From a virus, in IMG/VR virus record IMGVR_UViG_3300010885_033466, positions 1 to 24,658 of that record: 24,658 bases of DNA. One strand, given 5' to 3'. The position numbers and the translations under genes are program-made. Of the stretch, positions 3,082 to 24,626 are shown one piece after another; within the stretch, counting starts at the first letter, position 1, and every line of letters starts with the position of its first letter. The notes beneath the pieces were generated by a model, which was given only the letters and a program-made list of their open reading frames with translations, did not search any database and was not told where the DNA came from.

Positions 3082-3380
3082 TGGCCAAATATAGCAATAC
3101 CTCTCCATATTTCACAACTAGCGAAAATAATATCAGTCTAGATTTCTTAAGTCCTAGAACTATAACTGCTGAAAACGACGATATGTCTTACACCATTGAT
3201 AGAACTTACGCTTATAGACCAGATTTATTATCTTATGACTTGTATGGTACGCCACGATTATGGTGGGTATTTGCTCAAAGAAATCCAGATGTAATCGAAG
3301 ACCCAATTTATGATTTCTATCCAGGTAAAGTAATTCAATTACCTAAACTCAGCAATCTTAAAAATGATTTAGGCATATAA
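3081..3380 (+). CDS. 53: Baseplate wedge subunit gp53 (LysM-like)
   Basis: 99 residues. The start overlaps the preceding stop by one base, and AGGA lies 8 nt upstream. The second half holds the gp53 signature: RPDLLSYDLYGTPRLWWVFA, then QRNPDVIEDPIYDFYPGKVI, ending in QLP. This is the LysM-like fold used in small wedge proteins to bridge other wedge subunits. T4 gp53 is about twice as long, so this is a compact form of the kind found in marine T4-like phages. Only 2 nt separate it from the next gene, so it is translated as part of the operon. It has no catalytic residues; the role is structural. Confidence 0.85.
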   Translation: MAKYSNTSPYFTTSENNISLDFLSPRTITAENDDMSYTIDRTYAYRPDLLSYDLYGTPRLWWVFAQRNPDVIEDPIYDFYPGKVIQLPKLSNLKNDLGI

Positions 3381-3382
3381 AA

Positions 3383-5497
3383 ATGGCCAACGATTCAGCT
3401 TATAACGGTAAAATTTTAAAATCTTCGTCTAATAATTATAAACCATTACCCAACGAATTGGACAAATATGTTTCTTATAATGCTATATGGACTCTATCTG
3501 CTCTCTATAAAGAAGAATTAAAAGATCCAAAATTAATAACAAAAGGTAGACCACATGATATTATTGCTAAATCTGGAGGCATAGGCAGAGATGGAAATTT
3601 TTCTGATTTTAATAAATCTGATATAAGTGTAGGCAAGACTTTAAACACAGAGCGTAAATCAGACAAAATTTTAAGAAGAGGACACGATATATTCTTTGAA
3701 AGAGTAGTGATAGATGCCACCAATAGTCCTAATGCACAGAGAAAAATGATGAATTTTAATAAAATAGAAATAGAAATGACAGAACCATTTGGAGTAACTT
3801 TATTTGATAAACTTCGTGCAGCAGCTTTTAATTGTGGTTTTCGCGATCATGCAGATGCTCCTTTTCTATTAACATTAGATTTCAAAGGATATAATGATAA
3901 AGGTGGCCTAGAAACCGGAATAACCACTCGATATCTACCTATAAAAATCACCAATGCAGAAATGAATATAGATCAAGGAGGAACAAGATACAGTTTAACC
4001 GCAGTACCATGGACAGAATTTGCAATGACAGATAGATTTTTATACACTAGAGGAACCAGTGGAGGATTAGTAGCAAAAGTCGTTGGAGAGGCAAAAGCAT
4101 TTTTGAAAACAGAATATGGTGCTACTTTGCAAGATGCTCTAAGTATATTAGCAAAAAATTTAAATCAACAACAAGACATAGAGATTGATAAAAAAATAAG
4201 AGAAAAGAAAGATATTTATATAATTAAATGCGATAAGTTAGGTTCTCTTACAGCTAATTCATCAGCCAATTGGAATCTTAATTCTAAAGACGCTAGGTTT
4301 AGAGTCACTGTTAGACCTAATATGAGCATAGCTAAAATAATAACAGATTTACTAGTATCATCAGATGGTTTTAGAAATATAGAAAAAATAGTAGACAAAT
4401 ACTGGAAAGATTTAGCAGCAACAGAATCATCTAAAGAAAATCAAATGGAATCACAAGGACAAGGAGACACGCCTGATCCCATGGTACCGTGGTTTAAAAT
4501 TAAGACTTCTATATATCCTAATGATGGAGGAGATCCAGATGGCAATAATCAAACTGGAGGATGGGATAGTATTAGAAAAATGGACAGTAAAGTTATAGTA
4601 TTTGAAGTAATACCCTATCAAGTTCATGTGATGAATTTCACAGTGCCTGGTCTTAGTGCCAGTAAATTATGGGGTAAGAGTGTGAAGAAAGCCTACAAAT
4701 ATATCTATACTGGAGAGAACACTCAAATTATGGATTTAAAAATTAATTACAAATATGGATATTTTCAAGCTAGATTATTAGACGGATCAAGAGCTGAAGC
4801 AGCAAGTAAAAAAAATGTTAAAGATTTATCTCTATCAGAAATTGTTTTAAGATATGGTAATAAAAGTATAGATTTTCCCGAAAAGTTATTGCCTTTAAGA
4901 AGCGAACCCACTACAGTAAAATCTGAAGATGCTGCAACCGACGATGGAGCGCCTAGAACCATGGCAGATGATTTTCTTGAGTATCTCACAAATCCTCTAG
5001 CCGACATGGTTAATGTAGAGATGACCATACTGGGAGATCCTGCTTTTATAGGACAAGAATCTTATTTGCCTATAGAAGCAAAAAAAACAGCAACAGCTGG
5101 AGGTACAGGGCAGCAGATAGAACAGGTAGCACAATTTAAAGGCAAACAGTGGGATGACGAATTAAAATGTTTCAATTATGACGAATCAGAAGCATTTATT
5201 ACATTAACTTTTAAATTCCCTACAGATATTAATGAGAAAAAAGGTGTTATGGATTTTCAGAGTTTAGAGGATACACAATTTACTGGATTATATAAAGTAG
5301 TAAGAGTAGAGAGTATGTTTGAAGGTGGTAAATTCTTGCAAACATTACATATGGTAAGATACAATAATCAAGGTCAAGAAATTAGTGTAGTAGATGCTCT
5401 TAAACAGATAGATAATATGAAAGAAGCTGCCAACAGAGGAGTAACGTGGGAATCAGATGCACTGGGAAATATTACAACCGGAGGACCAGCAGCATAA
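3383..5497 (+). CDS. Large baseplate hub protein, gp27-like
   Basis: 704 residues, clearly longer than T4 gp27 (391). Three stretches suggest a hub of the gp27/gpD type. Residues about 125-215 contain FDKLRAAAFNCGFRDHADAP, LTLDFKGYNDKGG and YLPIKITNAEMNIDQGGT. A later stretch reads DMVNVEMTILGDPAFIGQES, the GDP-x(n)-GQ turn common to hub proteins. The C-terminus has FTGLYKVVRVESMFEGGKFL followed by QTLHMVRY, typical of the last hub beta-strands. It lies between gp53 and the gp5-like spike, where marine T4-like phages carry a large hub or structural gene. Acidic, N/Q-rich linkers fill the middle. The specific gp27 equivalence is inferred; other annotations would call such genes gp26-like hub or just virion structural protein. 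Confidence 0.65.
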   Translation: MANDSAYNGKILKSSSNNYKPLPNELDKYVSYNAIWTLSALYKEELKDPKLITKGRPHDIIAKSGGIGRDGNFSDFNKSDISVGKTLNTERKSDKILRRGHDIFFERVVIDATNSPNAQRKMMNFNKIEIEMTEPFGVTLFDKLRAAAFNCGFRDHADAPFLLTLDFKGYNDKGGLETGITTRYLPIKITNAEMNIDQGGTRYSLTAVPWTEFAMTDRFLYTRGTSGGLVAKVVGEAKAFLKTEYGATLQDALSILAKNLNQQQDIEIDKKIREKKDIYIIKCDKLGSLTANSSANWNLNSKDARFRVTVRPNMSIAKIITDLLVSSDGFRNIEKIVDKYWKDLAATESSKENQMESQGQGDTPDPMVPWFKIKTSIYPNDGGDPDGNNQTGGWDSIRKMDSKVIVFEVIPYQVHVMNFTVPGLSASKLWGKSVKKAYKYIYTGENTQIMDLKINYKYGYFQARLLDGSRAEAASKKNVKDLSLSEIVLRYGNKSIDFPEKLLPLRSEPTTVKSEDAATDDGAPRTMADDFLEYLTNPLADMVNVEMTILGDPAFIGQESYLPIEAKKTATAGGTGQQIEQVAQFKGKQWDDELKCFNYDESEAFITLTFKFPTDINEKKGVMDFQSLEDTQFTGLYKVVRVESMFEGGKFLQTLHMVRYNNQGQEISVVDALKQIDNMKEAANRGVTWESDALGNITTGGPAA

Positions 5498-7796: not shown

Positions 7797-8204
7797 ATGG
7801 CATACGAAGATAAAAATAGTAATAGCAATTTAAGACAAGTATTCAAAGGGTTTAGCTCACGAGCGGATCAAACCAATTTTAGATTATACGACTTTGAATT
7901 GATCAAACAGGATCTTATCAATAGATTAAGTGTGAGAAAAGGTGAACGAGTAGAAAATCCAGAATTTGGCACTATAATATACGATGCCATATTTGAACCT
8001 CTTACTAATGCTCTAAAACAAGCCATAGCCGATGATATCACACAGAATTTAAATGCAGATCCTAGAATTAGCACATCAGATATAACAGTGAGTGAAACCG
8101 AAGGTGGTATTAGTGTGCAGGCTACTATAACCTATGTGCCCTATAATATTACCGAGAAATTAACATTTTCATTCGACGAAAACTCTCTTTTACGCCTGTC
8201 TTAA
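7797..8204 (+). CDS. 25: Baseplate wedge subunit gp25
   Basis: 135 residues, very close to T4 gp25 (132). The family pattern is clear: LYDFELIKQDLINRLSVRKG ERVENPEFGTIIYDAIFEP (shown as two adjoining pieces), then a helix ALKQAIADDITQNLNADPR, and a final strand ending LTFSFDE. gp25-like proteins are conserved in all contractile injection systems, where they staple the wedge (gp6/gp7) to the inner baseplate and to the first sheath ring. Despite a historical lysozyme label, no glycosidase active site is evident. The gene starts 3 nt after the gp5 stop. A 43-bp gap to gp6 follows. Confidence 0.93.
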   Translation: MAYEDKNSNSNLRQVFKGFSSRADQTNFRLYDFELIKQDLINRLSVRKGERVENPEFGTIIYDAIFEPLTNALKQAIADDITQNLNADPRISTSDITVSETEGGISVQATITYVPYNITEKLTFSFDENSLLRLS

Positions 8205-8247: not shown

Positions 8248-11200
8248 ATGGCCACCACTGATAGACAAAACCGATTGCTAGTAGCCGAAGATTGGCGTAA
8301 AATCTATACCAGTTTCCAACAGGCAGATTTTAAATCATACGATTTTGAGACACTAAGAAGGACCATGATTGCCTATCTTAGAGAAAATTACCCAGATGAT
8401 TTCAATGATTTTGTTGAGAGTTCAGAATACATTGCTCTTATTGATCTTATTGCTTATATTGCTCAAAGTTTAAGTTTCAGAGTGGATTTAAATGCTAGAG
8501 AAAATTTCCTAGAGACTGCTGCTAGAAGAAACAGTATTCTAAGATTGGCACGATTAATCAATTACAATGCCAAAAGAAATCTTCCAGCCACAGGACTTTT
8601 AAAATTTACATCAATATCTACCACACAAGATGTCAGAGACAGCAGCGGCAACAGTCTAGCAAATCTTACAATATCATGGAACGATCCTACCAATGCTAAT
8701 TCTAGAGAGCAGTTTATTAATATATTAAATTCTGCCACGGTTAGCGGACAAAAATTTGGAAAACCTAGAGAATCCAACAACATAGGAGGCATTAATACAG
8801 AAACTTACACAGTTAATTCTAACAACACAGATGTACCAATGTTCACATTCACCAGAGGAGTGAGTGGTATAGCAAGAAATTTTGAAATAGTACCAGCCAC
8901 AATATCTAATTCAGAATCTATCTATGAACAATCACCAATACCAGGCACTGGTTTCAGTTACTTGTATAGAAACGACGGAGCAGGAGATTCCAGTCCTAAT
9001 ACAGGATTTTTTGTTCTACTAAAACAAGGATCATTAGCCAATTACGAATTTTCAATAACTCAACCCACTACGAATTACATCCAATCGATTAATGTTAACA
9101 ATATTAATAATACCGATGTATGGTTATATAAATTGGATGATTTTGGACAGATAGAAAAAGCATGGACCAAAGTACCCGACCTTAGCGGCAATAATGTTAT
9201 CTATAACAGTTTATCATCTGATGTAAGAGATATCTACAATGTTGTAACAAAGAATAATGATGCAATAGATCTTGTGTTCGGAGATGGTAACTTCTCTAAT
9301 ATACCATCTGGTAGATTTAGAGTTTATTATAGAACCAGTGCTAATTCTAATTTTTCAATTCAACCTGCAGACATGCAAGGTATATCATTCGGTATTGCTT
9401 ACACAGATGCCAATGGATCTCAACAAACTTTAACTATTACAGCATCTTTACAACAGAGTATCTATAATGCTGCTGCCACAGAGAGTAATGATAGTATTAA
9501 AACCAAAGCACCACAAGTGTATTATTCTCAAAATAGAATGATCACAGCAGAAGATTATAACGTAGTACCTCTATCAGCATCACAGGAAATTATTAAAATA
9601 AAATCAGTGAATAGAAGTGCCAGCGGTATCAGTAGATCCAAAGAAATTATAGATCCTACAGGTGCTTACAGTAATGTATCAGTATTTGCAGATGATGGAA
9701 TACTTTACAGAGAAGAAGTTTCTCCAGCGTTCACATTTACATTTACAAATAGAAATGAAATATTGGATATAATCAATCGATTAGTAGAACCAAAATTAAC
9801 AAAATCTTATTCTAGACAATTTTATTATCTCAAATATGGTAGTAAAGATCTTAGCACATTAGCAGCTAACTGGGTCAGCACCACAACAGGAACCAATGCA
9901 AATACAGGATATTTTACAGCAGGCGGACCATTAGCAGTGGGAGATTTTGCAACCAGCAATTTAAAATATGCTATACCCGGATCTATAATAAAATTTACAT
10001 CACCAGATTCAAGAGAATTCTTAAACGGAAAATTAGTAACTGCAGGCACAGGACTTGCTCAAGATAGACAATGGAGTAAAATTGCTGCAGTAGTAGGAGA
10101 TGGCGCTAATAATGGAGCAGGTAATTTAGAAACAGGAGTAGGACCAATCACATTAAATGATACAGTGCCAGCAGATGCTGTATTATCATCGGTTATTCCA
10201 AAATTTGCAACAGTGTTTGATACTGCTTTAAAAATTGATCTACAAGATAGAATAGAAGTTTATGAAGAATTTGGTCTTAGATATGATGAAGAAAATTCAG
10301 AATGGAAAGTAATAACAGCAGCTAATTTAGATTATTCTAAAGAATTTTCTTTAATGGATGCAGGAGATACAACCAATAGTAATTTAGATGCCAGCTGGTG
10401 GTTCAAGTTCACCAATGATGGCAACACATACACAGTGACTTATAGAGCTTTAGATTATATTTTTGAATCAGTGGGAGATAATAAATTTCATTTTGATACC
10501 GAAGAAAGAATATATGATTATACCACAGGAAGATCGGTTAAAGACACAGTAAGAATACTAAAAAGTAACACCGTGCCTAGCACAGGATTAGGTATAGGTT
10601 ATCCAATTGATTGGCAGATTGTGGACACAGTGGAAGAAGCAGATGGCTATCAAGATAATAGAAAAGTCAAAGTAGGATTCTATGATAGCGACGACGATGG
10701 TGTAGTAGACAATCCAGATATTTTTGATATAGTAGTAGAACCAGACACAAATATTACAACAAAATTTGTTTTCTTTGAAAAATATATCAGTTATGATAAC
10801 ATAGAAAGATACCGACCTTATTCTGCTACTAATTTTGTTGTTGCAGCAACAGAATCTGCTATAACATTACCAGGTGCTTATGAGAATGGACAATTATTTT
10901 ATTTTTACACAGACGATATTGTTAAAATATATGATAGCGAAACAATAACATTAACTACCACAACAGATTATTATGCTAGAAGAGGTAGAAGCGATATAGA
11001 ATTCCACTATCGTCACAATGCAGGACAAGGTACTAGAATAGACCCTTCTCAAACCAATATCATTGATATCTATATGTTGGAAAGATCCTATGATCAATTA
11101 TACAGAACATGGTTGGCTGAAGGAGGAGAAGAACCACAATCATCTACATCGGATCAGTTAAGAATTTCTTATTCGGGAGTATTAAATCCATTGAAAGGAT

Positions 11201-11727
11201 TGTCAGATCAAATAGTCTATCATCCGGTAAAATACAAAATATTATTTGGTTCTAGAGCAGAAGAACAATTTCAAGCTACATTTAAAGTGGTAAAAAATTC
11301 TTTAACCAATGTTACAAATGCAGTAATCAAAACTCGAGTTATACAGGCTATAAATGAATTTTTTGCTCTAAATAATTTTGACTTTGGAGATACTTTTTAT
11401 TTTACAGAATTAGCCACTTACATACACAACGAATTAGCACCATATCTATTAACAGTGGTCATAGTGCCTAATCAACACGAACAGTCATTTGGATCATTAT
11501 TCCAAATTAGTGGTGCTGCAGATGAGATTTTTATCAGTGGAGCGACCGTGGATGATGTTGTGATCATTGATGCTATAGGTGCCAATCAGTTGGCAGCCAG
11601 TGGCACAGTTGTAACCAGTACTACTGGAACAACTACCAGCAATAGGTCAACATCAGCAGTATCATCGGTCACTACAGGAAAAGCTGGATCAAGATCCAAC
11701 ACAGGCAGTAGCGGAACGGGATACTAA
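8248..11727 (+). CDS. 6: Baseplate wedge subunit gp6, enlarged
   Basis: 1159 residues against 660 in T4. The N-terminal signature is diagnostic: DFNDFVESSEYIALIDLIAY, then SLSFRVDLNARENFLETAAR and RLARLINYNAKRN (about residues 50-115). A middle block with FGDGNFSNIPSGRFRVYYR (about 345) and APQVYYSQNRMITAEDYNVV (about 422) is also typical of gp6 and of J-type baseplate proteins. The C-terminal block has IVYHPVKYKILFGSRAEEQF, TRVIQAINEFFALNNFDFGD and ELATYIHNELAPYLL. Extra length lies at about 500-950. Residues 813-824 read DSDDDGVVDNPD, resembling a calcium-binding DxDxDG loop. The last roughly 35 residues are Ser/Thr/Gly-rich and probably disordered. gp6 forms the wedge ring that holds the baseplate together and rearranges on contraction. 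Next gene: 2-nt gap. Confidence 0.9.
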   Translation: MATTDRQNRLLVAEDWRKIYTSFQQADFKSYDFETLRRTMIAYLRENYPDDFNDFVESSEYIALIDLIAYIAQSLSFRVDLNARENFLETAARRNSILRLARLINYNAKRNLPATGLLKFTSISTTQDVRDSSGNSLANLTISWNDPTNANSREQFINILNSATVSGQKFGKPRESNNIGGINTETYTVNSNNTDVPMFTFTRGVSGIARNFEIVPATISNSESIYEQSPIPGTGFSYLYRNDGAGDSSPNTGFFVLLKQGSLANYEFSITQPTTNYIQSINVNNINNTDVWLYKLDDFGQIEKAWTKVPDLSGNNVIYNSLSSDVRDIYNVVTKNNDAIDLVFGDGNFSNIPSGRFRVYYRTSANSNFSIQPADMQGISFGIAYTDANGSQQTLTITASLQQSIYNAAATESNDSIKTKAPQVYYSQNRMITAEDYNVVPLSASQEIIKIKSVNRSASGISRSKEIIDPTGAYSNVSVFADDGILYREEVSPAFTFTFTNRNEILDIINRLVEPKLTKSYSRQFYYLKYGSKDLSTLAANWVSTTTGTNANTGYFTAGGPLAVGDFATSNLKYAIPGSIIKFTSPDSREFLNGKLVTAGTGLAQDRQWSKIAAVVGDGANNGAGNLETGVGPITLNDTVPADAVLSSVIPKFATVFDTALKIDLQDRIEVYEEFGLRYDEENSEWKVITAANLDYSKEFSLMDAGDTTNSNLDASWWFKFTNDGNTYTVTYRALDYIFESVGDNKFHFDTEERIYDYTTGRSVKDTVRILKSNTVPSTGLGIGYPIDWQIVDTVEEADGYQDNRKVKVGFYDSDDDGVVDNPDIFDIVVEPDTNITTKFVFFEKYISYDNIERYRPYSATNFVVAATESAITLPGAYENGQLFYFYTDDIVKIYDSETITLTTTTDYYARRGRSDIEFHYRHNAGQGTRIDPSQTNIIDIYMLERSYDQLYRTWLAEGGEEPQSSTSDQLRISYSGVLNPLKGLSDQIVYHPVKYKILFGSRAEEQFQATFKVVKNSLTNVTNAVIKTRVIQAINEFFALNNFDFGDTFYFTELATYIHNELAPYLLTVVIVPNQHEQSFGSLFQISGAADEIFISGATVDDVVIIDAIGANQLAASGTVVTSTTGTTTSNRSTSAVSSVTTGKAGSRSNTGSSGTGY

Positions 11728-11729
11728 AA

Positions 11730-14700
11730 ATGGCTGACGCACCTATTAATAGTCAATCCAATTATGAGGTTGTAACAGATTCTCAAGGCACTGTACTTCG
11801 AAGATCCATAGCTCATCTACCATCTTTTTATAGAACAGATAATAATCATAGATTTTTAACCAGCACACTGGATCAATTAATACAACCAGGCAGATTAAAA
11901 AGATTAGATGGTTATATCGGTAGACAATATTCTTATACTAGATTGCCTTCCGATAGTTATATTGAAGCAACCAGTGAAGACAGAACAAATTATCAATTAG
12001 AACCTGCTGTAACATACACAGATAAAGATACATCATCGGTCAATCCAGAAGATCAAGTTAAATTTACTGCAACCTATGATGATTATATTAATCAAATAAA
12101 ATTCTTTGGGGGAAATGTTGAAAATCATGATAGATTAAACAAAGAAAAAGTTTATTCATATAATCCAGCAATAGACTTTGATAAATTGATCAATTATAGA
12201 GAATATTATTGGTTACCCGAAGGATCAGATCCGATATTGGTTTCTAATAATGGCACAAATACAGTGACTGAAATAAAAGTAGATCGTATAGGTAATTCTG
12301 CTTATACATTCAGCACCTATAAAAATTTAGAAAATCCTACAATAACTTTGTATAGAGGTAATACTTACAAATTTGTAATTAACGCACAAGGTCATCCTTT
12401 CTACATAATGACCGAACCGTTCACAACAGGTATAGCCGAAGATGGCAGCACATCAGTGATATATTCTTCTGGAGTATCGGGTAATGGCACAGAAATTGGA
12501 ACTTTAAATTTCACAATACCTTCAGATGCTCCTGATATATTATATTATCAGTGCGGTAATCATCAAGCAATGCAGGGTATTTTTACAATCAAAACCATCA
12601 CTGCTACCACAAAAATAGATGTAGAACACGAGATAGTAGGTGCTAAAAATTATACTTTAGCCACAGGAATAAAATTGAGCAATGGTATGAAATTAAGATT
12701 TGATTCAAATACTGTTTCTTCGTCTTTTAATAATAAACAATTTTATGTAGAAGGTGTTGGAAGTTCTATCACTTTAACTGATACTGCTCGATTGATAACT
12801 CCAGAATCTTATTCTGTAGAAACTACAGAATTATATGATACAGTTTCATATGATAGTAGACCTTATGCTATAAGTTTTTATAGACCAGAAACACCAGATT
12901 ACATAACAATTAAAAGAGACAGTCCCGATAATAATGCATGGAGCAGATACAATAGATGGTTCCACAAAGCAGTGTTAGAAACTACTGCAGAAGCCAACGG
13001 GCATACAATTTCTCTTTTAGAAACAGACAGAGCCAAAAGACCCATAATAGAATTTGATTCAGGCATACAATTATACAATCACGGAACCGAAGGATTAAAT
13101 TCTGTGACTCTAATAGATACTGTTACTACTGATGTATTTTCTACAGTGGTTAATGCTGCAGGATATATTGTGGATGGTATAGCATTGGTGCATGGCATGC
13201 GAGTGTTATTCTTAGCAGACACAGATTTGCTAGTTAAAAATAGAATTTACAAAGTTAATTTTGTCACAGTGGGCGACAATTCAGTAATAAATCTTACTCA
13301 AGAACCAGATGGTATACCACAAGATGGTCAGACATTTTATGCAGAATTAGGAGCAAATTATCAAGGAAAAACTTTTTATTTTAAACAATCTGATAATATA
13401 TGGACACAAGGACAGATCAAAACTGCTCTAAATCAACAACCTTTGTTCTCGTTAGAAGACGACAATCATGTAAAATTTAGTGATCAAACAGTGTATGAGA
13501 ATTCTTCTTTTACAGGTGCTGCTGTTTTTGAATATAAAACTTCAGAAACTTCTCCTGTGGATACTGTGTTAGGATTAAGAGTAAAATATAATACCATTAA
13601 TAATGTGGGAGATATTATTTTTACTTCTGATCTTGGTTCAGATTCATTCACTTATAAGAGTGGAGAAAAAGTTCTTTCAAAGAGTTTTACAACTGGCCAC
13701 GTACATTATATTACTGGTAGAGATACCAATATTCCTAGAACTTCGTGGATAGAAAGAGCCGAAGAGAGTAAACAGAGAGTAATAAGAACATTCATAGTAG
13801 AAGCTGGAGAATTAAGATTATTTCCTATAGATGTATTTGCCAACAGTGCTGGTCTACAGGATTTAGATGTTCAAGTGGATGTTAATCATACAACACAGAA
13901 TTTAAACATTGATTATGTACTGGTAAATGGAACCACTAACAAATATGTAAAATTTTTATATGATTTAGCAGTCAATGACATAGTAAAAATACAAGTTCAC
14001 AGCTCTGTTAAAAAATTAACAGGCAAAGGATTGTATGAAGTACCAGAAAATTTAGGAGTTAATCCATTCAATGAGCAATTAACAGATTTTACATTTGGTC
14101 AAATATTAAATCACGTACACGATATTAATGAAAAAAATATTGAATTAACAGGAGATACACCAGGCAATAGTAATTTAAGAGATCTTCCTGATGTAAGAAC
14201 CAAGGGTGGAACTATATTACAACATTCAGCACCGTTGCCACCAGCAATGTTTTTATTAATAGATCAAAATGCCAATGCAATATCGGCTATAGAATATTGT
14301 TCTTTAGAATATCAAAAATTTAAAGAAGGATTTTTATCAAATATCTCTAATGGAAGTACGTATGAGAGTAATGTTGCTACTGCAGTAGATGAGATAATAA
14401 AATCTATGATAGGAGATAAGGGAATTAGTTTTCCATTCTTCTATGAAGATATGATAGGATATGGAGAAAAAGTCAGCACAAGAACATACACAGTACAAGA
14501 CAGTGCAGAGACCGAATATACCATAGACAATCAGTTTGATATAAAAGTCTCTAGCAATAGAGCAGTTTATGTTTATCTCAATGATACGCAACTATTACAA
14601 GGTTATGATTATACTTTTAGTGAAACTGATGACAGTGTGAACATAACTGCGGCTCTCACAGAAGGAGATATAATTAAAATTAAAGACTACAGCGACACCA

Positions 14701-17700
14701 CAGGTAGTTTTGTACCACCAACACCAACTAAATTAGGAATATATCCTCGATTTAAACCAGAAAAAGTTCTTGATAACACATACGTAGAACCAACCTATGT
14801 GATAGTAGGACACGATGGCAGTAAAACTGTAGCATACGATGATTATAGAGATGATTTATTATTAGAATTAGAACGAAGAATTTATAACAATTGCAAGATT
14901 GTTTATAATCCAGAATTATTACCAGAAACTGAAGTAAGACCTTCAGCATTCCAAACAAGCGAATATTCTATAAACGAAATTAATAATATTTTGAGTTATG
15001 ATTTCTATTTTTGGGCAGGAAAAAATGCTGTGGATTATCAAAAGAATAATATCTATAATGAATCTAATCCTTTCACTTTTAATTATAGCAGTAATAAAGA
15101 TTTTTTAAACGGTGAATATCTACCAGGACATTGGAGAGGCATATACAACTATTTCTATGACACAGACCGACCACACACGCATCCTTGGGAAATGTTGGGT
15201 TACAGCGAAAAACCATCATGGTGGGAAGATACCTATGGTCCAGGACCCTACAGCTCGGGTAACGAATTATTATGGAACGATTTAGCAGCTGGATATGACA
15301 ACGGATTAGGAGCAGCCAATTCTAGATATGCTAGACCAGGATTATTAAATTATCTACCAGTGGATGAGAATGGAAATTTAAAATCACCGATAGAGGCAGG
15401 ATTGATAGACAACTATGAATCATCAGGTATTAATAAAGTATGGAAATTTGGAGATCAAGCACCAGCTGAAACTGCTTGGAGAAGAAGTTCTCAATATCCT
15501 TTTGCTGTGATGAGATTGTTAGCATTAACAAAACCAGCAAAATTCTTTGGATTATTTTTTGACAACAGTAGATTAGGTTTAAATGCATCAGGAAATGTCA
15601 TAGATAAAGACACAGATGTAGCACAGAGTATAAGAACTGCCAAATATCATTTAGAAACAGTAACAGATAGCGAAACAGGAGCAATCATTCGTTATATAAC
15701 CGGAGGATATCAACCTTTTGTTGTTAACTATCTAATTAAAAATGGATTAGATCCAGCAGTATTCTTTTATGATAAAATGAAAAATCTCAATGTGCAATTA
15801 GCATATAAATTAGGAGGATTTTCAGATAAACAAAATTTAAGAGTATTAACAGATAGTGTTAGTCCAGGATCCACAGCAGGATCACAATTTATTCCTGATG
15901 AAAACTATAAAATTTTATTTAGAATCAGTAATCCTATTAGAACATTTGAATATTCTGGAGTATTGATAGAATTAAACACAGCTACCACAAATGATGGTAG
16001 TACATTAGAAGGTGGTTATAAAGTTGTAGGTTATAATACAATTAGACCTTACTTCTCAGTTTTAGAACCAATACAGAATGGTAATAGTTATTCCGTTGAA
16101 GCAGGTAATGCTCGAGCAATTATCTATAAAGATTATGCAGATGTAGAAAAAATTGTAACTTATGGCGCAGTGTTTAAAGATGTTCAATCAGTGATTAATT
16201 TCTTAACAGGATACGGAAAATATTTAGAATCACAAGGATTTGTTTTTGATAGATTTACAAAAGAATTACAAGAAGTTGCAAACTGGGATATGTCAGCCAA
16301 AGAATTTTTATATTGGACCAGACAAGGATGGGCAGCAGGATCTGCTATTACATTAAGTCCAGGAGCAGAAGGATTCCATCTTACAACCAAAGATAGTGTG
16401 ATAGGAAAATTAAAAAATTTACAAGGAGAATACACAGTATTAGACTCTTCGGGTAGAACAGTTAATAACAAATCAATTAGTACCAAACGTGTGGGTACTA
16501 CTTTTGAAATAGTTAGCAAATTTCCAGAATCAGGCATATACAATATCTCAATGAATGCTGTACAGAAAGAACACATATTATTATTTGATAATATCACAGT
16601 GTTCTCGGACATACTGTTACAATTAACCACAGGATTCCGTCAACAAAGATTTCGATTAATCGGATGGAAGACTGGTGACTGGAATGGTGATTATTATTCT
16701 CCAGGATTTATATTTGACGAAGCACAAGTAGCAGCATGGACAGCAAATACTGATTATCAAATCGGTGATACTGTGGAATATAATGCTAAATTTTATACTT
16801 CTAAAGTCAATCATAATTCTGGAAGTTCTTTTGAATCAGCTAAATGGCAAAAAAAATCTCAAAAACCTGCTGCACAATTAATACCTAATTTTGATTATAA
16901 AATTTCACAATTTAATGATTTTTACAATTTAGAGAGCAACAATTTTGATGAAGCACAACAAAAGTTAGCACAACATCTTACAGGATATCAATCTAGAAGT
17001 TATTTAGATAATCTTTTCTTAAACGATGTTTCTCAATATAAATTTTATCAAGGATTTATTAGAGAAAAGGGTACACTTAATGCTATAAACAAATTAGTCA
17101 AAGCCAAGTTTTATGGAGAAGATATCAGTATCGATCTTTATCCAGAATGGATGATTAAAGTCGGAGAATTTGGAAATACTGAAAGTAAAAAATCTATACA
17201 GATTCGTATGTCTGACAACTCATTCACTAACAATATACAGAGTATAGAGATATTGGACAATTCAACAGATTCTTTAAATTGGGACAAATCAGTTAGAGTG
17301 CTTAGTTCAGAATTATACAACAAACCAGTGGAATATGTTGCTCAAGAAACATTTTCTCTTTATGACTATAATACAGAAGGTACAGATAAAGACACAGTTC
17401 AAAAATTTAAAACAGCAGGTTATCCTAGATTGCTAGATGTAGACCATACTGCATTTACAACATCGGATCTTCTTAATTTAAATGTGTCAGCAATTACTAA
17501 AAATGATCTGGTATGGATAGCAAAAAAAGACAATAGTGAATGGGACGTGTTAAGATTAACGTCCACTGGATTAAAAATAGCAGCCATGAGACAGATTAAT
17601 AATGCTACTCAAGTAGAAATATTATTAACCGGAAATCACAATTTTATAAAAGGAGATTATTTTACAATATTAAACAGTCAATTTACACCATTGAATGGAG

Positions 17701-20700
17701 TATATCAAATATACAGCACACCTACCAGTTCATCTTTGATATTCAATTACAGCAATTCTAATAGAGTATCCGGCACAGTATTAACTTCAGATCAATCCAC
17801 AATAAACACCTATGGTAACATTTATAAATGGGTTAGTGTGAGAATTTCTAGTATGGATAATGTCAATGATAGAATATCTTACAATGTTTATAGAGATGTT
17901 GATACTACAAATTTTGTTAACGGAGATAGAATATTTGCAGACAATAATACTGAAGGTAAGTGGAGCATATATGAAAAAACTGACCCTTATGCAGTAACAA
18001 TACTACAATCTCCAGACACAGACAACGAGCAGGCATTTGGTTATCAAGTAGTGGCTAGAAATGATGGTAGAACTTTAATAGTATCAGCTCCAGACGAGGG
18101 ACAAGGTCATATACATTTCTTCTATAGAGCAGAAAATAAACCAGGTAACTTATTCTTCCCTACAGGCAGTTATGAGATGACCGATAGCAACAACGAAACA
18201 GCAGGATTAGGGCGAGTTTTAACAATCAGCACAGATGAAAATTATATTGTGGCAGGAGCACCCTATACAAATACATTAACATCTGATGGCAGCACCAGAC
18301 ACGATAAAGCTGGATTAATAAAGATTTTTTCTTGGAATTCTGAGGATAAATTTTATTCATTATCACACACCGTGTTACCACTATCAGATGATAGTACCAC
18401 ATTAACAAATTTAAATTATGGATGGGCATGTGCTATAGCCGAGCCTTCGGATGCTAGTACAGTATATACAAGACCGAAATTTCTTTTTGCTTCTGCACCA
18501 GGTTTAAACAATGATTCTGGTGTGGTTTATGTGCATACCTTACAAAAAGATGTAGGCGACAGCACCATCTCTCTTTGGAGACAAGATTCAGCTATATTCA
18601 GCAATGAATCAGGCTCAGGCAAAAGATTTGGACATAGATTAGCAGTCAATGACAATGCAGATATATTGGCTGTGAGCAGCGTTGCTCCAGGCACCGCTGG
18701 GCAAGTAGAAATATTTACAAAAAATAGTGTGAATGATGATGGCAGCAGTATAGAAGACGGCAGTACAAAACATATATTCACTCACAGACAAACACTTAAA
18801 GGAGTAAATGCAGATGGCAGTACATTAAACACTGCATTTGGTGAGAGTATATCTATGAGCATCGATGGAGAATGGCTTGTAATATCTGCTCCTGGATTTG
18901 ATAAAGGCGAACAAACAGATGCTGGCACAGTTTATGTCTATAAATGGAATGCCGATGGATCAACAAACACCTATACTTTACAACAAACTATTTCAGCACC
19001 AGATTCTGCCACAAACATGAGATTTGGTTCTTCAGTACAAATTAATAGAGCAAATAATAGAATAGTGATAGGAGCTGAAAAATTTGGCAATCAAAGAAGT
19101 ATGAGTTTCGATAACGGTGCTACCACATTTGATATAGGAGACACAAGAATAGTGGATCTTAATATAGGATCCGGCGGTGTTTTTACCGCTACAAAATATG
19201 ATACAGAATTTGTAATAGATGACAAATTAGTTACAACCAAAGTTAGCGCCAATGATGATTTTGGTAGAGGTGTTTTTATAAATGATACAACAGTATTTGT
19301 TGGAGCTCCTCAGGATGACACAGCAATAGATGACAGCACATATCGTGTAAATGATGGAACATTAACAATATTTGATCTTAAAGAGAGAGATTCTTATGCT
19401 TGGAACGCATTATCAACGGAAACTAATCTTGTTAATAATAATAGAGCAGATTCTGCTTTTATATTTGATAGTGCAACCAACGAAATAATTGATTATTTAG
19501 ATTATTATGATCCTATCAAAGGTAGAATATTAGGCATAGCAGATAGAGAAATTAATTATAAAACAGAATGGGATCCTGCTGTTTATAATATAGGAACACA
19601 AAATAAAACTGTCAGTGCTAACACAGCATGGGGAGAAGAGCATATAGGAGAAGTTTGGTGGGACATGAGTACTGTAAGATGGTTATGGTATGAACAACAT
19701 GGCACAGAATATAAAACTAAAAATTGGGGTAATATATTTCCAGGCTCCTCTATAGACATATATGAGTGGGTAGAATCAACTCTATTGCCATCAGAGTGGA
19801 ATTCTAGAGCTGACACAGTGGTAGGTTTAGCACAAGGTGTATCAGGCACGCCATTACACATTGACAATACAGTTTTTACAGTAAAACAAAAATACAATTC
19901 TAACTCAGATAGTTTTATCAATTACTATTATTATTGGGTAAAAAATTCTGTATTTTTACCACCATTAAACAAATCAGTCACACAAAGAAAGAATACTACT
20001 GCTTATGTGGCTAACCTAATAGAAAATCCATTGGGGTCTGGAATAAAATATTATGCTATCACAGGCACAAATTCATTGATAACATTTAATGTTAAAAATA
20101 GTTTGAATAACGATAATACAATACTTAATGTTAATTTTAAAAATAACGATAATGAATCAGGGTCTCACTCTGTTTGGAAATTAATCAGAGAAGGTGATAA
20201 AAATGATCGTCCTAATGAAATGTTGGAAACAAAATGGTGGGATAGTCTTATAGGTAAAGACACAGCTGGTAATGAAGTACCAGATGTAAATCTACCTCTT
20301 AATCAAAGATATGGAATCAATATAAGACCTAGACAGAGTTGGTATGTGGATAGATTTGCTGCATTAAAAGAAATTATAGATTATAGTAATATTGTGTTAA
20401 AAGCAAAACAATTAGCCAACAATATCGATTATACAAATTTAAATTCTGCCGATCCAGAACCCACAGAAGTGTCAGGAGAATGGGATCGTAGAGTGGAAAG
20501 TTATGCAGATTTAACATATATTGATACTCGAGATATCAGCGGTACAATTAATGTATTAGTAGCCAATGATGAAGAAAATAGCAAAGGTTCGTGGGCTATC
20601 TACAATTGGAATCTTACAGAATGGGTTAGAACCAAAGTACAAACATACAAGACCAGCACTTACTATAGTTTAGCTGATTGGTATGCCGAAGGATACGACA

Positions 20701-23700
20701 CAAATACTGTGATTGATAAACAGGTTAATTATCAGTATGAGGCTGACACAGCAGGTTTAGAAATTGGACAGATTGTAAAAGTATTACGAGCTGACACAGG
20801 TGGATGGAAATTATTTGAACAAACCACAGAAGGATTAAAAAATATTGCCACGCAAAATGGCACAATACAATTGTCCAAAGCTCTATATGATTATACCATT
20901 AAGAATACAGGATTTGATGCCGATGATACTTTTGACGTTAATTTCTTTGACCAAGAACCCACTATTGAGACTAGAAATATTTTAAAAGCTCTAAGAGATG
21001 ATATATTTGTAGGTGATCTTGCAATAGAGTACAATAATATATTTTTTATAGGATTAAGAAAAGTATTAGAAGAGCAATTATACGTAGATTGGTTAAACAA
21101 ATCTTCATTCATAAATGTAACCAATAATTTAAGACCATTAGATCAGCGCAAGACCTATAGAGTGGGTAATGAGAACTTCGTGGAAGATTATATCAATGAA
21201 GTCAAACCTTATCATACAAAAATAAGAGAATACAAATTAGGTTATACCAATACAGAAACACAAGATGGAATCAATGCAGATTTTGATCTTCCAGCGTTCT
21301 ATGATGGCACTCGTATTAGAAATGTGGATACCACAGCAGATGTAGCAGTAATGGCGAGTTATCCTTATCGATTCTGGAGAGACAATTATAAAAAATATGT
21401 AGATTCTATTGTGGTAACCAATAGCGGTAGTGGTTATATCACTGCTCCTACAGTTACATTGGTAGGAGGAACAACCAAATCAGTGGGACCGTTTACAGTG
21501 TTAGGCAGAAGTAATAGTGGCACAACATCGGGACAATCAGGCTATTTCTATCCATTATACACAGCCAAAGCAGATGCTGATTTAGCAGATAGTCAAGCAG
21601 GTGGATTAAGCTCTAGTTCATTATTCACATTTGAAGAATACACAGGCATAGAATTCTATATGCCAAATACAGGACAGAATATCGCTGTTACAGATAGACC
21701 GGAAGGATATGAAGTTTATACCACAGCAGATAATACTCAAGCCACAGCCACAGCAATAATACAGAATGGATCTGTAACAAAAATAAAATTATTAACGCCA
21801 GGTAGCAATTACACAGCCACACCAAGAGTGGTATTAACAGGCGGGGGTGCTGGAGGAGTTACACCAACAGATGCTGCTCGAGCCTATGCTAATTTAAGAA
21901 ATGATCTTGTGAGAGATATTGCTACAACGATTAAATTTGACCGAGTTCAATCCACAGCCACAGTGTTGGATTGGGCAGCAAATACTGCCTATGCTTATAA
22001 TGATTTAATCAGATATGAAGATGGATTCTATAAAGTTAATAGTGGTTTTACCAGCACAGAAAATTTTGATGATGGAGTAACATATCTAACAAAATTACGA
22101 GGTGACGAGCCTTATATTACTGCTGCTGAAAGAACACTGGGATTATATGCTCCAGAAGCTGGTATGCCAGGCAATGAATTATCTCAAGTGATGACCGGTG
22201 TGGATTATGGTGGAGTTATGGTCACAGGACTGGCATTTAGCAGTGGTCAGGGTTGGGATCGATCTCCATGGTATGACAATCCATGGGACACATATGGTTT
22301 AAGTCGAGTTAAAACATTCTACGGCGATGGCAGCACCACAGCATTTACATTTCCAAGTGCACCAAGTGCAACTGATGTATACACAGTGTACATAAATGGT
22401 GTGAGACAAACATCACTGGTGTTCAGAGGCGATGGATCTACCAAAACATTCACAGTTATACCTGATGATAGTTCAGTGGTCGGTTCTGGAGATGAAATAC
22501 AGTTCATACCGTTCGATGATGACGGAGTTCTAACACCCACAGATGACAAAACTCTAGATTCATTGATCAGTGGTGGTCTTTTTGGATCAGCAGTGGGAAT
22601 AGCACCAAGTGACATTGTATTAGAAGGTGATGGATTCGTAACACCAGAAACCAGCTACGCCCCAGAAGAGAATGTGCCAGGATCCATGTTTGATACTGTG
22701 GACATTAAAGTTTATACCACACCAGAATCGGGTGTGCCATTTATTGTAAACAAAAATTACATTGGCGATGGCACAACAGCAACTCATGCCATTGGTCAAA
22801 TGCCAGGCACACAAGCTTCAGTGATAGTGACAGTGGATGGAGTAACCAAAGATATTGCCACACACTACACAGTGGACACAGCAGCAAACACAATCATATT
22901 TACATCAGCACCTGCTGTCGACAGCAGGATATCTATCAAGAGTTTTGCTATATCTGGTGCTAAAACAGATAATAGCACAATTAATTTTATGGTAATGAAT
23001 AGATTCTTAGGAGATGGATCTACAGCATCATTCACAACATCTGCTAGAGAAACTTTTCAATTAGACAGTGCTTTATCACAGCTTTATGTCACAGTAGACG
23101 GTCAGCCAAACACAAATTATACCACATTAGTATCTAATAAATTAGTTACAATTACATTCCATACTGGAGATGGATCTACATTAAATCCTCCGGCAGCAGG
23201 CAAATCTGTACAGATAGCAGCATTCAATCAAGCACCAGGCAGCGGCAGAGCTTACGCTGAAATAAGATCAGAAGATATCGTCTATGATGGCAGCACCAAC
23301 AGATACACCTTAACGTATCCATCAGGAGCAATAGGTCCATATTCAGGATTGACTCTATTACAACTGAATGGCAAAATATTGCGAGGACCAGACAACACCT
23401 ACTATGCTGGTGACGGCAGCACCACAAGTTATAGTCTGGGCACAGATCCTGCCAACACTGTGACCACAGCCAATCAAGTGGAAGTGTATGTGAACGGTTC
23501 TAAAAAATATCTGTTCACTGATTACACAGTGAACATAGGCACACAAAAAGTAGAGTTTGTGTCAGCACCAGGAGCAGCGGATGTTATCGCTGTGTCGGTA
23601 TTATTGGATAATCATTATTACAACGAAGGATCAGATGTGATATTACGACCAACACAAATCTCAGCAGATGGAATATCTCTATCAGCCACAGATACTCTCA

Positions 23701-24626
23701 CTGCAATTACATTTAACAACGCTGTGGGAATGAATCAAAGAAGAGAAGTGTTTGCTGGCGTAACATCTGGAGAATTCTATTTACAGAACACACCACTTAA
23801 CAGTGATTATGTGTTTGTGTGGTTGAATGGAGATTCTTTAACAGCAGGATATAATTTTCTTTTAGAAGGAAAAAAAATAACCATAGGTGGTGTGACATTA
23901 TCACCCACGGACAGAATAGATGTGATGTACTTTGCTGTGGTGAGTGCCACCAACGCCACGGGATTCCGCATATTCAAAGACATGCTGAATAGAAGTTTCT
24001 TCAAAAGAATCAGCGCCGACAACACCACAACACTGGCCGCAGCACTGGCAGATGATGCCACAGCAATCATAGTGGCAGATGGCAGTGTGTTGGCATCTCC
24101 TCCAGGAGGTTCAGTGCCAGCAGTCATATTCATAGACAAAGAAAGAATTGAATATTTCATCAAATCAGGCAGCACTCTATCTCAATTGAGAAGAGGTACT
24201 CTAGGAACAGGTATAAAAACTCATGCAGCAGGTACATCGGTGGTGGACGCTTCAGGTTCTCAAACTGTGCCTTACGCAGAAACAGTTTACACAAAAACAT
24301 CTATGGGAGATGGTAGTACCAATATATTCCCTACCACAATTGCGGCAGCCACACCATACGAATTAGATGTGTTTGTGGGAGGTAGAAGATTGCCATATAT
24401 GAGTGAAGATGGCAGCACTGTTAACTATACAGTGGATGGCAGCACTGCAAATGTGGTACTCGCTGATACACCACCAGCAGATGTGCAAGTAAAAATCGTA
24501 CAAAAACGTGGAGTAGTATGGTATACACCAGGTGTAGGCACTGCAGCTGATGGTAAAGGACTACAAAAATCAACAACTAACCAAGCAAAATTCATAGCAG
24601 GAGAACCAACAAATGTACCTGAATAA
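11730..24626 (+). CDS. Giant modular baseplate/virion structural protein in the gp7 position (4298 aa)
   Basis: One uninterrupted frame of 4298 codons, roughly 470 kDa by average residue mass; T4 gp7 is 1032 residues. The core resembles large virion proteins of marine T4-like phages: RRSIAHLPSFYRTDNNHRFL at the start, FGQILNHVHDINEKN and NLRDLPDVRTKGGTILQHS (about 790-840), GHWRGIYNYFYDTDRPHTHP (about 1133-1152), LNQRYGINIRPRQSWY (about 2855-2870) and INEVKPYHTKIREY (about 3156-3170). Into or onto this core are added a cupredoxin-like domain (202-290), two CBM5/12-like modules, a seven-blade FG-GAP propeller (2100-2550), a split GSGY-type domain and a C-terminal GDGST repeat array (3531-4240). 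Operon position after gp6 implies a wedge protein of the gp7 type, with domains that may reach the cell surface. The gp7 assignment rests mainly on position. Confidence 0.7.
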   Translation: MADAPINSQSNYEVVTDSQGTVLRRSIAHLPSFYRTDNNHRFLTSTLDQLIQPGRLKRLDGYIGRQYSYTRLPSDSYIEATSEDRTNYQLEPAVTYTDKDTSSVNPEDQVKFTATYDDYINQIKFFGGNVENHDRLNKEKVYSYNPAIDFDKLINYREYYWLPEGSDPILVSNNGTNTVTEIKVDRIGNSAYTFSTYKNLENPTITLYRGNTYKFVINAQGHPFYIMTEPFTTGIAEDGSTSVIYSSGVSGNGTEIGTLNFTIPSDAPDILYYQCGNHQAMQGIFTIKTITATTKIDVEHEIVGAKNYTLATGIKLSNGMKLRFDSNTVSSSFNNKQFYVEGVGSSITLTDTARLITPESYSVETTELYDTVSYDSRPYAISFYRPETPDYITIKRDSPDNNAWSRYNRWFHKAVLETTAEANGHTISLLETDRAKRPIIEFDSGIQLYNHGTEGLNSVTLIDTVTTDVFSTVVNAAGYIVDGIALVHGMRVLFLADTDLLVKNRIYKVNFVTVGDNSVINLTQEPDGIPQDGQTFYAELGANYQGKTFYFKQSDNIWTQGQIKTALNQQPLFSLEDDNHVKFSDQTVYENSSFTGAAVFEYKTSETSPVDTVLGLRVKYNTINNVGDIIFTSDLGSDSFTYKSGEKVLSKSFTTGHVHYITGRDTNIPRTSWIERAEESKQRVIRTFIVEAGELRLFPIDVFANSAGLQDLDVQVDVNHTTQNLNIDYVLVNGTTNKYVKFLYDLAVNDIVKIQVHSSVKKLTGKGLYEVPENLGVNPFNEQLTDFTFGQILNHVHDINEKNIELTGDTPGNSNLRDLPDVRTKGGTILQHSAPLPPAMFLLIDQNANAISAIEYCSLEYQKFKEGFLSNISNGSTYESNVATAVDEIIKSMIGDKGISFPFFYEDMIGYGEKVSTRTYTVQDSAETEYTIDNQFDIKVSSNRAVYVYLNDTQLLQGYDYTFSETDDSVNITAALTEGDIIKIKDYSDTTGSFVPPTPTKLGIYPRFKPEKVLDNTYVEPTYVIVGHDGSKTVAYDDYRDDLLLELERRIYNNCKIVYNPELLPETEVRPSAFQTSEYSINEINNILSYDFYFWAGKNAVDYQKNNIYNESNPFTFNYSSNKDFLNGEYLPGHWRGIYNYFYDTDRPHTHPWEMLGYSEKPSWWEDTYGPGPYSSGNELLWNDLAAGYDNGLGAANSRYARPGLLNYLPVDENGNLKSPIEAGLIDNYESSGINKVWKFGDQAPAETAWRRSSQYPFAVMRLLALTKPAKFFGLFFDNSRLGLNASGNVIDKDTDVAQSIRTAKYHLETVTDSETGAIIRYITGGYQPFVVNYLIKNGLDPAVFFYDKMKNLNVQLAYKLGGFSDKQNLRVLTDSVSPGSTAGSQFIPDENYKILFRISNPIRTFEYSGVLIELNTATTNDGSTLEGGYKVVGYNTIRPYFSVLEPIQNGNSYSVEAGNARAIIYKDYADVEKIVTYGAVFKDVQSVINFLTGYGKYLESQGFVFDRFTKELQEVANWDMSAKEFLYWTRQGWAAGSAITLSPGAEGFHLTTKDSVIGKLKNLQGEYTVLDSSGRTVNNKSISTKRVGTTFEIVSKFPESGIYNISMNAVQKEHILLFDNITVFSDILLQLTTGFRQQRFRLIGWKTGDWNGDYYSPGFIFDEAQVAAWTANTDYQIGDTVEYNAKFYTSKVNHNSGSSFESAKWQKKSQKPAAQLIPNFDYKISQFNDFYNLESNNFDEAQQKLAQHLTGYQSRSYLDNLFLNDVSQYKFYQGFIREKGTLNAINKLVKAKFYGEDISIDLYPEWMIKVGEFGNTESKKSIQIRMSDNSFTNNIQSIEILDNSTDSLNWDKSVRVLSSELYNKPVEYVAQETFSLYDYNTEGTDKDTVQKFKTAGYPRLLDVDHTAFTTSDLLNLNVSAITKNDLVWIAKKDNSEWDVLRLTSTGLKIAAMRQINNATQVEILLTGNHNFIKGDYFTILNSQFTPLNGVYQIYSTPTSSSLIFNYSNSNRVSGTVLTSDQSTINTYGNIYKWVSVRISSMDNVNDRISYNVYRDVDTTNFVNGDRIFADNNTEGKWSIYEKTDPYAVTILQSPDTDNEQAFGYQVVARNDGRTLIVSAPDEGQGHIHFFYRAENKPGNLFFPTGSYEMTDSNNETAGLGRVLTISTDENYIVAGAPYTNTLTSDGSTRHDKAGLIKIFSWNSEDKFYSLSHTVLPLSDDSTTLTNLNYGWACAIAEPSDASTVYTRPKFLFASAPGLNNDSGVVYVHTLQKDVGDSTISLWRQDSAIFSNESGSGKRFGHRLAVNDNADILAVSSVAPGTAGQVEIFTKNSVNDDGSSIEDGSTKHIFTHRQTLKGVNADGSTLNTAFGESISMSIDGEWLVISAPGFDKGEQTDAGTVYVYKWNADGSTNTYTLQQTISAPDSATNMRFGSSVQINRANNRIVIGAEKFGNQRSMSFDNGATTFDIGDTRIVDLNIGSGGVFTATKYDTEFVIDDKLVTTKVSANDDFGRGVFINDTTVFVGAPQDDTAIDDSTYRVNDGTLTIFDLKERDSYAWNALSTETNLVNNNRADSAFIFDSATNEIIDYLDYYDPIKGRILGIADREINYKTEWDPAVYNIGTQNKTVSANTAWGEEHIGEVWWDMSTVRWLWYEQHGTEYKTKNWGNIFPGSSIDIYEWVESTLLPSEWNSRADTVVGLAQGVSGTPLHIDNTVFTVKQKYNSNSDSFINYYYYWVKNSVFLPPLNKSVTQRKNTTAYVANLIENPLGSGIKYYAITGTNSLITFNVKNSLNNDNTILNVNFKNNDNESGSHSVWKLIREGDKNDRPNEMLETKWWDSLIGKDTAGNEVPDVNLPLNQRYGINIRPRQSWYVDRFAALKEIIDYSNIVLKAKQLANNIDYTNLNSADPEPTEVSGEWDRRVESYADLTYIDTRDISGTINVLVANDEENSKGSWAIYNWNLTEWVRTKVQTYKTSTYYSLADWYAEGYDTNTVIDKQVNYQYEADTAGLEIGQIVKVLRADTGGWKLFEQTTEGLKNIATQNGTIQLSKALYDYTIKNTGFDADDTFDVNFFDQEPTIETRNILKALRDDIFVGDLAIEYNNIFFIGLRKVLEEQLYVDWLNKSSFINVTNNLRPLDQRKTYRVGNENFVEDYINEVKPYHTKIREYKLGYTNTETQDGINADFDLPAFYDGTRIRNVDTTADVAVMASYPYRFWRDNYKKYVDSIVVTNSGSGYITAPTVTLVGGTTKSVGPFTVLGRSNSGTTSGQSGYFYPLYTAKADADLADSQAGGLSSSSLFTFEEYTGIEFYMPNTGQNIAVTDRPEGYEVYTTADNTQATATAIIQNGSVTKIKLLTPGSNYTATPRVVLTGGGAGGVTPTDAARAYANLRNDLVRDIATTIKFDRVQSTATVLDWAANTAYAYNDLIRYEDGFYKVNSGFTSTENFDDGVTYLTKLRGDEPYITAAERTLGLYAPEAGMPGNELSQVMTGVDYGGVMVTGLAFSSGQGWDRSPWYDNPWDTYGLSRVKTFYGDGSTTAFTFPSAPSATDVYTVYINGVRQTSLVFRGDGSTKTFTVIPDDSSVVGSGDEIQFIPFDDDGVLTPTDDKTLDSLISGGLFGSAVGIAPSDIVLEGDGFVTPETSYAPEENVPGSMFDTVDIKVYTTPESGVPFIVNKNYIGDGTTATHAIGQMPGTQASVIVTVDGVTKDIATHYTVDTAANTIIFTSAPAVDSRISIKSFAISGAKTDNSTINFMVMNRFLGDGSTASFTTSARETFQLDSALSQLYVTVDGQPNTNYTTLVSNKLVTITFHTGDGSTLNPPAAGKSVQIAAFNQAPGSGRAYAEIRSEDIVYDGSTNRYTLTYPSGAIGPYSGLTLLQLNGKILRGPDNTYYAGDGSTTSYSLGTDPANTVTTANQVEVYVNGSKKYLFTDYTVNIGTQKVEFVSAPGAADVIAVSVLLDNHYYNEGSDVILRPTQISADGISLSATDTLTAITFNNAVGMNQRREVFAGVTSGEFYLQNTPLNSDYVFVWLNGDSLTAGYNFLLEGKKITIGGVTLSPTDRIDVMYFAVVSATNATGFRIFKDMLNRSFFKRISADNTTTLAAALADDATAIIVADGSVLASPPGGSVPAVIFIDKERIEYFIKSGSTLSQLRRGTLGTGIKTHAAGTSVVDASGSQTVPYAETVYTKTSMGDGSTNIFPTTIAAATPYELDVFVGGRRLPYMSEDGSTVNYTVDGSTANVVLADTPPADVQVKIVQKRGVVWYTPGVGTAADGKGLQKSTTNQAKFIAGEPTNVPE
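12332..12597 (+). other. Cupredoxin-like domain within the giant protein (residues ~202-290)
   Basis: Starts at NPTITLYRGNTYKFVINAQG and ends with YYQCGNHQAMQGIFTI, the strand order of a small Greek-key cupredoxin. Candidate type 1 copper ligands are present: His222 in GHPFY, then Cys275, His278 and Met281 in C-x2-H-x2-M. Similar domains occur in virion proteins of marine phages. Whether it binds copper is not shown by sequence; the H-to-M spacing is shorter than in plastocyanin. Confidence 0.7.
16737..16868 (+). other. CBM5/12-like carbohydrate-binding module 1 (residues ~1670-1712)
   Basis: W-x(n)-Y-x2-GDTVEYNAKFYTSKVNHNSG, then FESAKW: the order of Trp, Tyr, GD-x-V-x-Y, F/Y and closing Trp fits the short chitin-binding (ChiC-type) CBM5/12 fold. 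It may bind surface glycans or serve as a structural insert. Confidence 0.55.
18033..19382 (+). other. Seven-blade FG-GAP-type beta-propeller within the giant protein (residues ~2100-2550)
   Basis: Seven repeats each open with FG or a close variant (FG 2103, LG 2160, YG 2230, FG 2300, FG 2370, FG 2432, FG 2511). Most continue to a hydrophobic-GAP/SAP strand (LIVSAP, YIVAGAP, FLFASAP, WLVISAP, VFVGAP) and a V-Y/F-V-Y strand. Three successive spacings are exactly 70 residues. The pattern matches the FG-GAP_2 style of repeat and lacks the integrin DxDxDG calcium loop. Blade 6 is degenerate and carries an insertion. Seven copies would close a complete propeller, commonly a protein- or glycan-binding platform. 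Confidence 0.8.
21420..21865 (+). other. Split GSGY-type domain pair with inserted YPLY...YMP module (residues ~3231-3378)
   Basis: NSGSGYITAPTVTLVGG (from 3231) and PGSNYTATPRVVLTGGG (from 3357) are two copies of the same short motif, G-S-x-Y-x3-P-x-V-x-L-x-G-G. Between them lies a segment bounded by FYPLYTAKADAD (3273) and FYMPN (3309), a module also known from marine phage virion proteins. The arrangement looks like a domain inserted between two repeats. Confidence 0.5.
21972..22096 (+). other. CBM5/12-like module 2 (residues ~3415-3456)
   Basis: WAANTAYAYNDLIRYEDGFY then KVNSGFTSTENF, resembling module 1 in order (W-x3-T-x-Y, D-x-I-x-Y, F-Y) but without the closing Trp and with N-D in place of G-D. 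It is a more divergent copy, so weaker than module 1. Confidence 0.4.
22320..24449 (+). repeat. C-terminal GDGST beta-repeat array of the giant protein (residues ~3531-4240)
   Basis: Ten D-G-S/T-T turns at residues 3533, 3568, 3680, 3762, 3814, 3853, 3895, 4194, 4227 and 4236. The complete units follow the pattern GDGST-x-F/Y-T, then V-x-V-N/D-G, then D/H-Y-T-V, then I-x-F-x-S-A-P and D-x-I-x-I. One further unit near 3970-4040 has lost the GDGST turn but keeps FVWLNG and DRIDVMYF. Such repeats usually build stacked beta-sandwiches in fibres or adhesin-like stalks. A separate module with IDKERIEYF and LRRGTLGTG (about 4099-4175) interrupts the array. The underlying DNA often repeats GATGGCAGCAC. 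Confidence 0.75.

Follow-up and report, generated by a model that had tools for sequence, protein, structure and literature searches.

Beta-propellers are known from phage tails, where they are rare, usually form domains of fibre or peripheral proteins, and have roles that are mostly unproven. Described examples include the five-bladed propeller in the receptor-binding protein of phi11 and the seven-bladed propeller of phiKZ gp131C (PDB 4GBF), which lies at the periphery of a jumbo-phage baseplate (PMC4901313). Stand-alone integrin-like FG-GAP proteins have been described in Sinorhizobium phage AP-J-162 and Agrobacterium phage Atu_ph07 (PMC11242549). Here we describe a predicted integrin-type propeller within a scaffold protein encoded at the wedge position of a phage genome. 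It is this placement that is new, given that phage-tail propellers and stand-alone FG-GAP proteins are already known; a search of the open-access literature (openly licensed papers) found no phage baseplate protein reported to contain an FG-GAP domain. The window referred to below is the whole 24,658-nucleotide stretch analysed (IMG/VR record IMGVR_UViG_3300010885_033466, positions 1 to 24,658), and residue numbers are those of its largest protein.

The propeller most closely resembles that of integrin alpha subunits, with which it shares seven FG-GAP blades, a putative N-terminal closing strand, homology at the profile level and the best structural match; it differs in lacking DxDxDG calcium loops, in having the short turns of the FG-GAP_2 subtype, and in being located within a baseplate protein. 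Like phiKZ gp131C it is a seven-bladed propeller in a jumbo-phage baseplate, but the gp131C propeller is the C-terminal domain of a separate protein from a different phage group, whereas that of the window is an internal insert in the protein encoded after gp6, and 4GBF was not among the 50 best PDB matches listed. The FG-GAP 'hemagglutinins' of Atu_ph07 and AP-J-162 and a virion protein of cyanophage S-TIM5 have FG-GAP repeats and an integrin-like structure in common with it, but are products of separate genes (~375-420 aa) elsewhere in the genome; no FG-GAP match was found in the syntenic 4,450-aa protein of Atu_ph07. Virion structural proteins of PHROG 10938 from RaK2/121Q/PA5oct-type jumbo phages occupy the same place in the gene order and have a homologous scaffold, but without the propeller, their stem hairpin being uninterrupted or holding other sequence.

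Gene order and the host protein

The propeller is encoded by an open reading frame (11730-24626, plus strand) whose product has 4,298 residues and matches PHROG 10938 (virion structural protein). The genes preceding it are, in order and by PHROG matches, gp53-like, hub/lysozyme-like, gp25-like (baseplate wedge subunit; 7797-8204, plus strand; PHROG 43, E=3.7e-16) and gp6-like (baseplate wedge subunit; 8248-11727, plus strand; PHROG 10646, E=1e-301), while genes for a late sigma factor and an SbcD-like nuclease lie on the minus strand upstream of the gp53-like gene. Because the gp25- and gp6-like wedge genes come directly before it, the large protein occupies the position that gp7 holds in T4. 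A first-pass annotation of the sequence had spoken of a T4-like wedge-position protein, and the gene order agrees with this; a sequence match to T4 gp7 was not found, as profiles of residues 2-1660 and 2565-3400 returned nothing meaningful against PDB chains. Since these other regions match no solved T4 baseplate protein, "gp7" is used here as a positional label only. According to the PA5oct record, the syntenic relative in that phage was detected in virions by mass spectrometry.

Upstream of the propeller, the same protein carries a CBM5/12 chitin-binding-like module (residues 1669-1713; 16734-16868, plus strand; PF02839, E=1.4e-6). A cupredoxin-like stretch (HPF...YYQCGNHQAMQGIF; 12282-12584) with possible type-1 copper ligands is 36-51% identical to a cyanophage 'baseplate wedge tail fiber connector' (gp9).

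Repeat units and predicted fold

Seven FG-GAP units start at residues 2103, 2160, 2230, 2300, 2370, 2432 and 2511 (18036-19379), at spacings of 57, 70, 70, 70, 62 and 79 residues. Five open with FG, the unit at 2160 with LG and that at 2230 with YG. The first-pass annotation had read seven FG-starting repeats with GAP/SAP strands, three consecutive spacings being exactly 70 residues; the seven repeats and the three equal spacings are borne out, the latter being those of 2160-2230-2300-2370. The pattern [FLYW]G-x12-24-[GSV]A[PE] occurs seven times in the domain, whereas 5,000 shuffles gave 0.10 occurrences on average and never more than 3, and in an alignment of 66 homologous propellers (23-82% identical) the seven units are conserved, with the unit glycines present in 64-66 sequences and strong conservation of all but one of the seven (G/S/V)AP turns. 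The shuffles and the conservation together rule out a chance repeat pattern.

A Pfam FG-GAP_2 search, one of the checks that the annotation had proposed, gave E=4.4e-20 for the excised domain, with only three units passing on their own. Sequence homology to integrin propellers was found with the 66-sequence family profile, which matched integrin alpha-4 (E=3.5e-12); the single propeller sequence, searched without the family profile, did not match it. The calcium-binding integrin FG-GAP subtype was ruled out by the absence of DxDxDG loops: between strands 1 and 2 the strict DxDxDGxxD form is present in 0 of the 66 propellers, and in the propeller of the window even the loose form is absent.

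Structure prediction, likewise proposed beforehand, was performed with AlphaFold2 on the 66-sequence alignment and yielded 28 blade strands making up all seven blades (mean pLDDT 88.9, pTM 0.89). The propeller strands were retained in a wider model of residues 1660-2760 (pLDDT 77.6, pTM 0.63). The best 50 PDB structural matches listed were all integrin alpha chains (best E=1.2e-15, TM by target length <=0.68), and full-length integrin matches in combination with the 28 strands imply ring closure in the predicted model. The complete seven-bladed, integrin-type propeller put forward in the annotation is thus supported by model, PDB matches and FG-GAP_2 profile, and the prediction points to a closed FG-GAP_2 ring that forms a discrete side domain in a beta-hairpin.

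Based on Pfam, the model, PDB matches and conservation, the domain extends from about residue 2085 to 2556, N-terminal closing strand included (17982-19397, plus strand, as are all features below). This is wider than the 18033-19382 originally assigned, an interval that is right for the repeat units. A model strand, YAVTILQ (2087-2093; 17988-18008), lies ahead of blade 1 and probably supplies the fourth strand of blade 7. In integrins, an N-terminal strand likewise provides the closing strand of blade 7. The model, conservation and the unit pattern define blades 1 (2103-2149; 18036-18176), 2 (2160-2215; 18207-18374), 3 (2230-2289; 18417-18596) and 4 (2300-2357; 18627-18800), as well as strands 1-3 of blade 7 (2511-2550; 19260-19379). 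Blade 5 (2370-2422; 18837-18995), assigned by Pfam and the model, is the best FG-GAP_2 match among the blades, and blade 6 (2432-2500; 19023-19229) was delimited by the model and loop conservation.

Blade 6 carries an extra hairpin in its 2-3 loop (2450-2481; 19077-19172; model strands 2454-2460 and 2472-2478). The annotation had noted an extra segment here, at about 2440-2505, and considered it a possible binding loop. The segment is present, but shorter, because residues 2482-2500 form strands 3 and 4 of the blade, and a free variable loop is ruled out by the motif FDxxxTTFDxxxTxI (19107-19151) that it holds: D2468 is found in all 66 homologues and T2465 and T2472 in 65 each, and no other loop sequence of the domain is as well conserved. 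Many loops vary in length, on both faces of the propeller; variability limited to one face was not seen (top/bottom loop conservation 0.37 vs 0.33).

Insertion site and distribution

In the model the propeller is flanked by two stem strands, WSIYEKT (2078-2084; 17961-17981) and AWNALSTE (2557-2564; 19398-19421), the latter also placed by flank alignment, and in relatives without a propeller the first joins the second. When the flanks were fused and used as a profile, the alignment ran through the junction with no insertion in L145, PA5oct and SCTP-2, and with about four inserted residues in Atu_ph07 and Phosso, from which it follows that the propeller occupies the turn of the hairpin WSIYEK/WNALSTE. 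By this alignment, the propeller is an apparent insert in a hairpin that runs without a break in relatives lacking the propeller. The sequence at the propeller position comprises ~68 residues in 121Q, 124 in Vibrio phage 2.275.O, 225 in PA5oct and 343 in SCTP-2, and ~1,170 residues without FG-GAP in Atu_ph07 and Phosso. A LamG-like insert suspected by eye at this site in SCTP-2 received neither Pfam nor PDB support.

At E<=1e-5 the propeller itself has no match among cultured phage records, whereas its flanks are 24-32% identical to jumbo-phage sequences. Relatives were drawn from IMG/VR by searches with the downstream flank, and the composition of the sample depends on these queries. A survey of related phages, also suggested by the annotation, was carried out on a tree of 125 non-redundant related proteins: the propeller is present in 113 lineages, all uncultured, and absent in 12, mostly cultured jumbo phages. 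Presence and absence require one change on this tree, which is unrooted so that the change may be a gain or a loss; a second tree that included L145 again required one (support 94). Neither loss nor replacement of the propeller was seen in the 113 sampled lineages. The propeller thus sets one large, mostly uncultured phage lineage apart from its relatives. With an integrin-type propeller built into the wedge-region scaffold of a large environmental lineage, and an exact empty site in its relatives, the contribution of a propeller to a contractile baseplate can be addressed directly.

Divergence and possible function

Within the window's clade (49 sequences), divergence of the propeller is 1.10x that of the rest of the protein (r=0.87), and in a distant clade (17 sequences) it is 1.56x (r=0.57); blades 1-3 diverge faster (ratio 1.26). 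Host-switching tips usually display recombination and replacement. When L003 was compared with L055, L066 and L034, propeller identity was 50-55%, the connector-like gene directly downstream of the large gene was 85-90% identical, and the second fibre-like gene of L003 had no counterpart in the other three. Products of the genes downstream of the large gene include a protein of ~230-240 aa (PHROG 11259) and a first fibre protein. Downstream fibre genes are lost or replaced between lineages, a turnover of the kind that host-range proteins would be expected to show. One fibre-like protein, encoded at 19083-20516 of L055, has long glycine-rich runs like those of glycine-rich adhesin tips and is a candidate host-range determinant.

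Scaffold-like divergence, the conserved blade-6 motif and fibre-gene turnover together lead us to prefer docking over host-range determination. We consider the chances about even that the propeller is a fixed docking platform for a conserved partner, which we favour over a switchable host-recognition tip. Its two stem strands would hold it, as a rigid disc, away from the wedge scaffold, and it would bind a conserved partner, most likely another protein of the baseplate or a fibre connector whose gene lies just downstream. The conserved blade-6 hairpin would be a structural or contact element, and host specificity would reside in the separate, fast-changing fibre genes. Counting against a docking platform are the faster blades 1-3 and the length-variable loops on both faces. 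The roughly 1.6-fold faster and less correlated propeller of the distant clade also speaks against docking and would fit recognition of a variable target.

That the propeller is instead a receptor- or glycan-binding head contacting the host surface, as has been supposed for five- and seven-bladed phage-tail propellers, we regard as the less probable of these two readings, although a substantial one. It has precedents in the phi11 receptor-binding protein and in phiKZ gp131C at the baseplate periphery (PMC4901313), and it would agree with the CBM5/12 module in the same protein as well as with the variable loop lengths and the faster divergence of the distant clade. It is weakened by the inheritance of the propeller with the scaffold at a near-equal rate in the window's clade, by the lack of any swap in 113 lineages, and by the host-range-like turnover already found in the downstream fibre genes, even though a conserved host-surface ligand would give the same conservation pattern as a docking partner. 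The first-pass annotation had offered a receptor-binding or protein-docking head; divergence, fixation and fibre turnover weaken its receptor half and leave docking as the better, putative one.

A mainly architectural role, in which the propeller would bind no specific ligand and would mainly space or stabilise an enlarged baseplate, seems improbable: fixation in the clade, location in a hairpin turn, and different or no material at the site in other relatives would be compatible with it, but the conserved blade-6 loop motif suggests a specific contact and relatives assemble without any insert. A glycosidase- or lyase-like enzyme is very improbable. Resemblance to carbohydrate enzymes has been noted for some phage propellers (PMC4901313), but the 50 best PDB matches listed are integrins, not enzymes, and no enzyme family reaches the Pfam cut-off.

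Propellers of this family can, as their sequences indicate, accept inserted domains. In L161 (6089-9979), whose propeller is confirmed by Pfam, the blade-1 and blade-2 regions are separated by a YHYH domain (Pfam E=5e-37). Cyanophage proteins, including one with the annotation gp7, contain a domain that shares 43-48% identity with it. Read by eye, L163 is a near-copy of L161 and is arranged alike. L192 (7361-9988) and L198 (7112-9997), whose propellers are Pfam-confirmed, have other modules between FG-GAP units. Such accessory domains in propeller loops are reminiscent of the I domain inserted in some integrin alpha chains. A more elaborate and rather unlikely proposal is that the propeller forms an integrin-like baseplate platform, in which the blade-6 hairpin would dock a conserved partner, loops would take accessory domains (YHYH in L161 and L163, others in L192 and L198), and baseplate triggering or fibre attachment might proceed via an integrin-type joint.

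Additional observations

The tetrapeptide DGST occurs 15 times in the 4,298-aa protein, 82-fold over expectation, at residues 238, 1422, 2186, 2343, 2362, 2409, 3533, 3568, 3762, 3814, 3853, 3895, 4194, 4227 and 4236. Its serines use both AGY and TCN codons, so the repeat is probably selected at the protein level. About nine copies lie in C-terminal GDGST modules; the others occur in loops of unrelated domains, among them several loops of the propeller. DGST is absent from four upstream structural genes examined, and enrichment is restricted to the window's clade, with 1-18 copies in 49 homologues of that clade vs 0-1 in 17 distant homologues.

Propeller relatives with 51-52% identity (L201-L203) are found on contigs in three marine metagenome-assembled genomes (Porticoccaceae, Betaproteobacteria, Pelagibacter); a host assignment from these was discarded, as they are probably mis-binned phage contigs. 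In Sinorhizobium phage Phosso (PV764938.1), 42 FG-GAP_2 matches fall at about 48-69 kb and 92-94 kb, most of them in two giant frames (3,702 and 3,182 aa) whose position is unrelated to the wedge protein.
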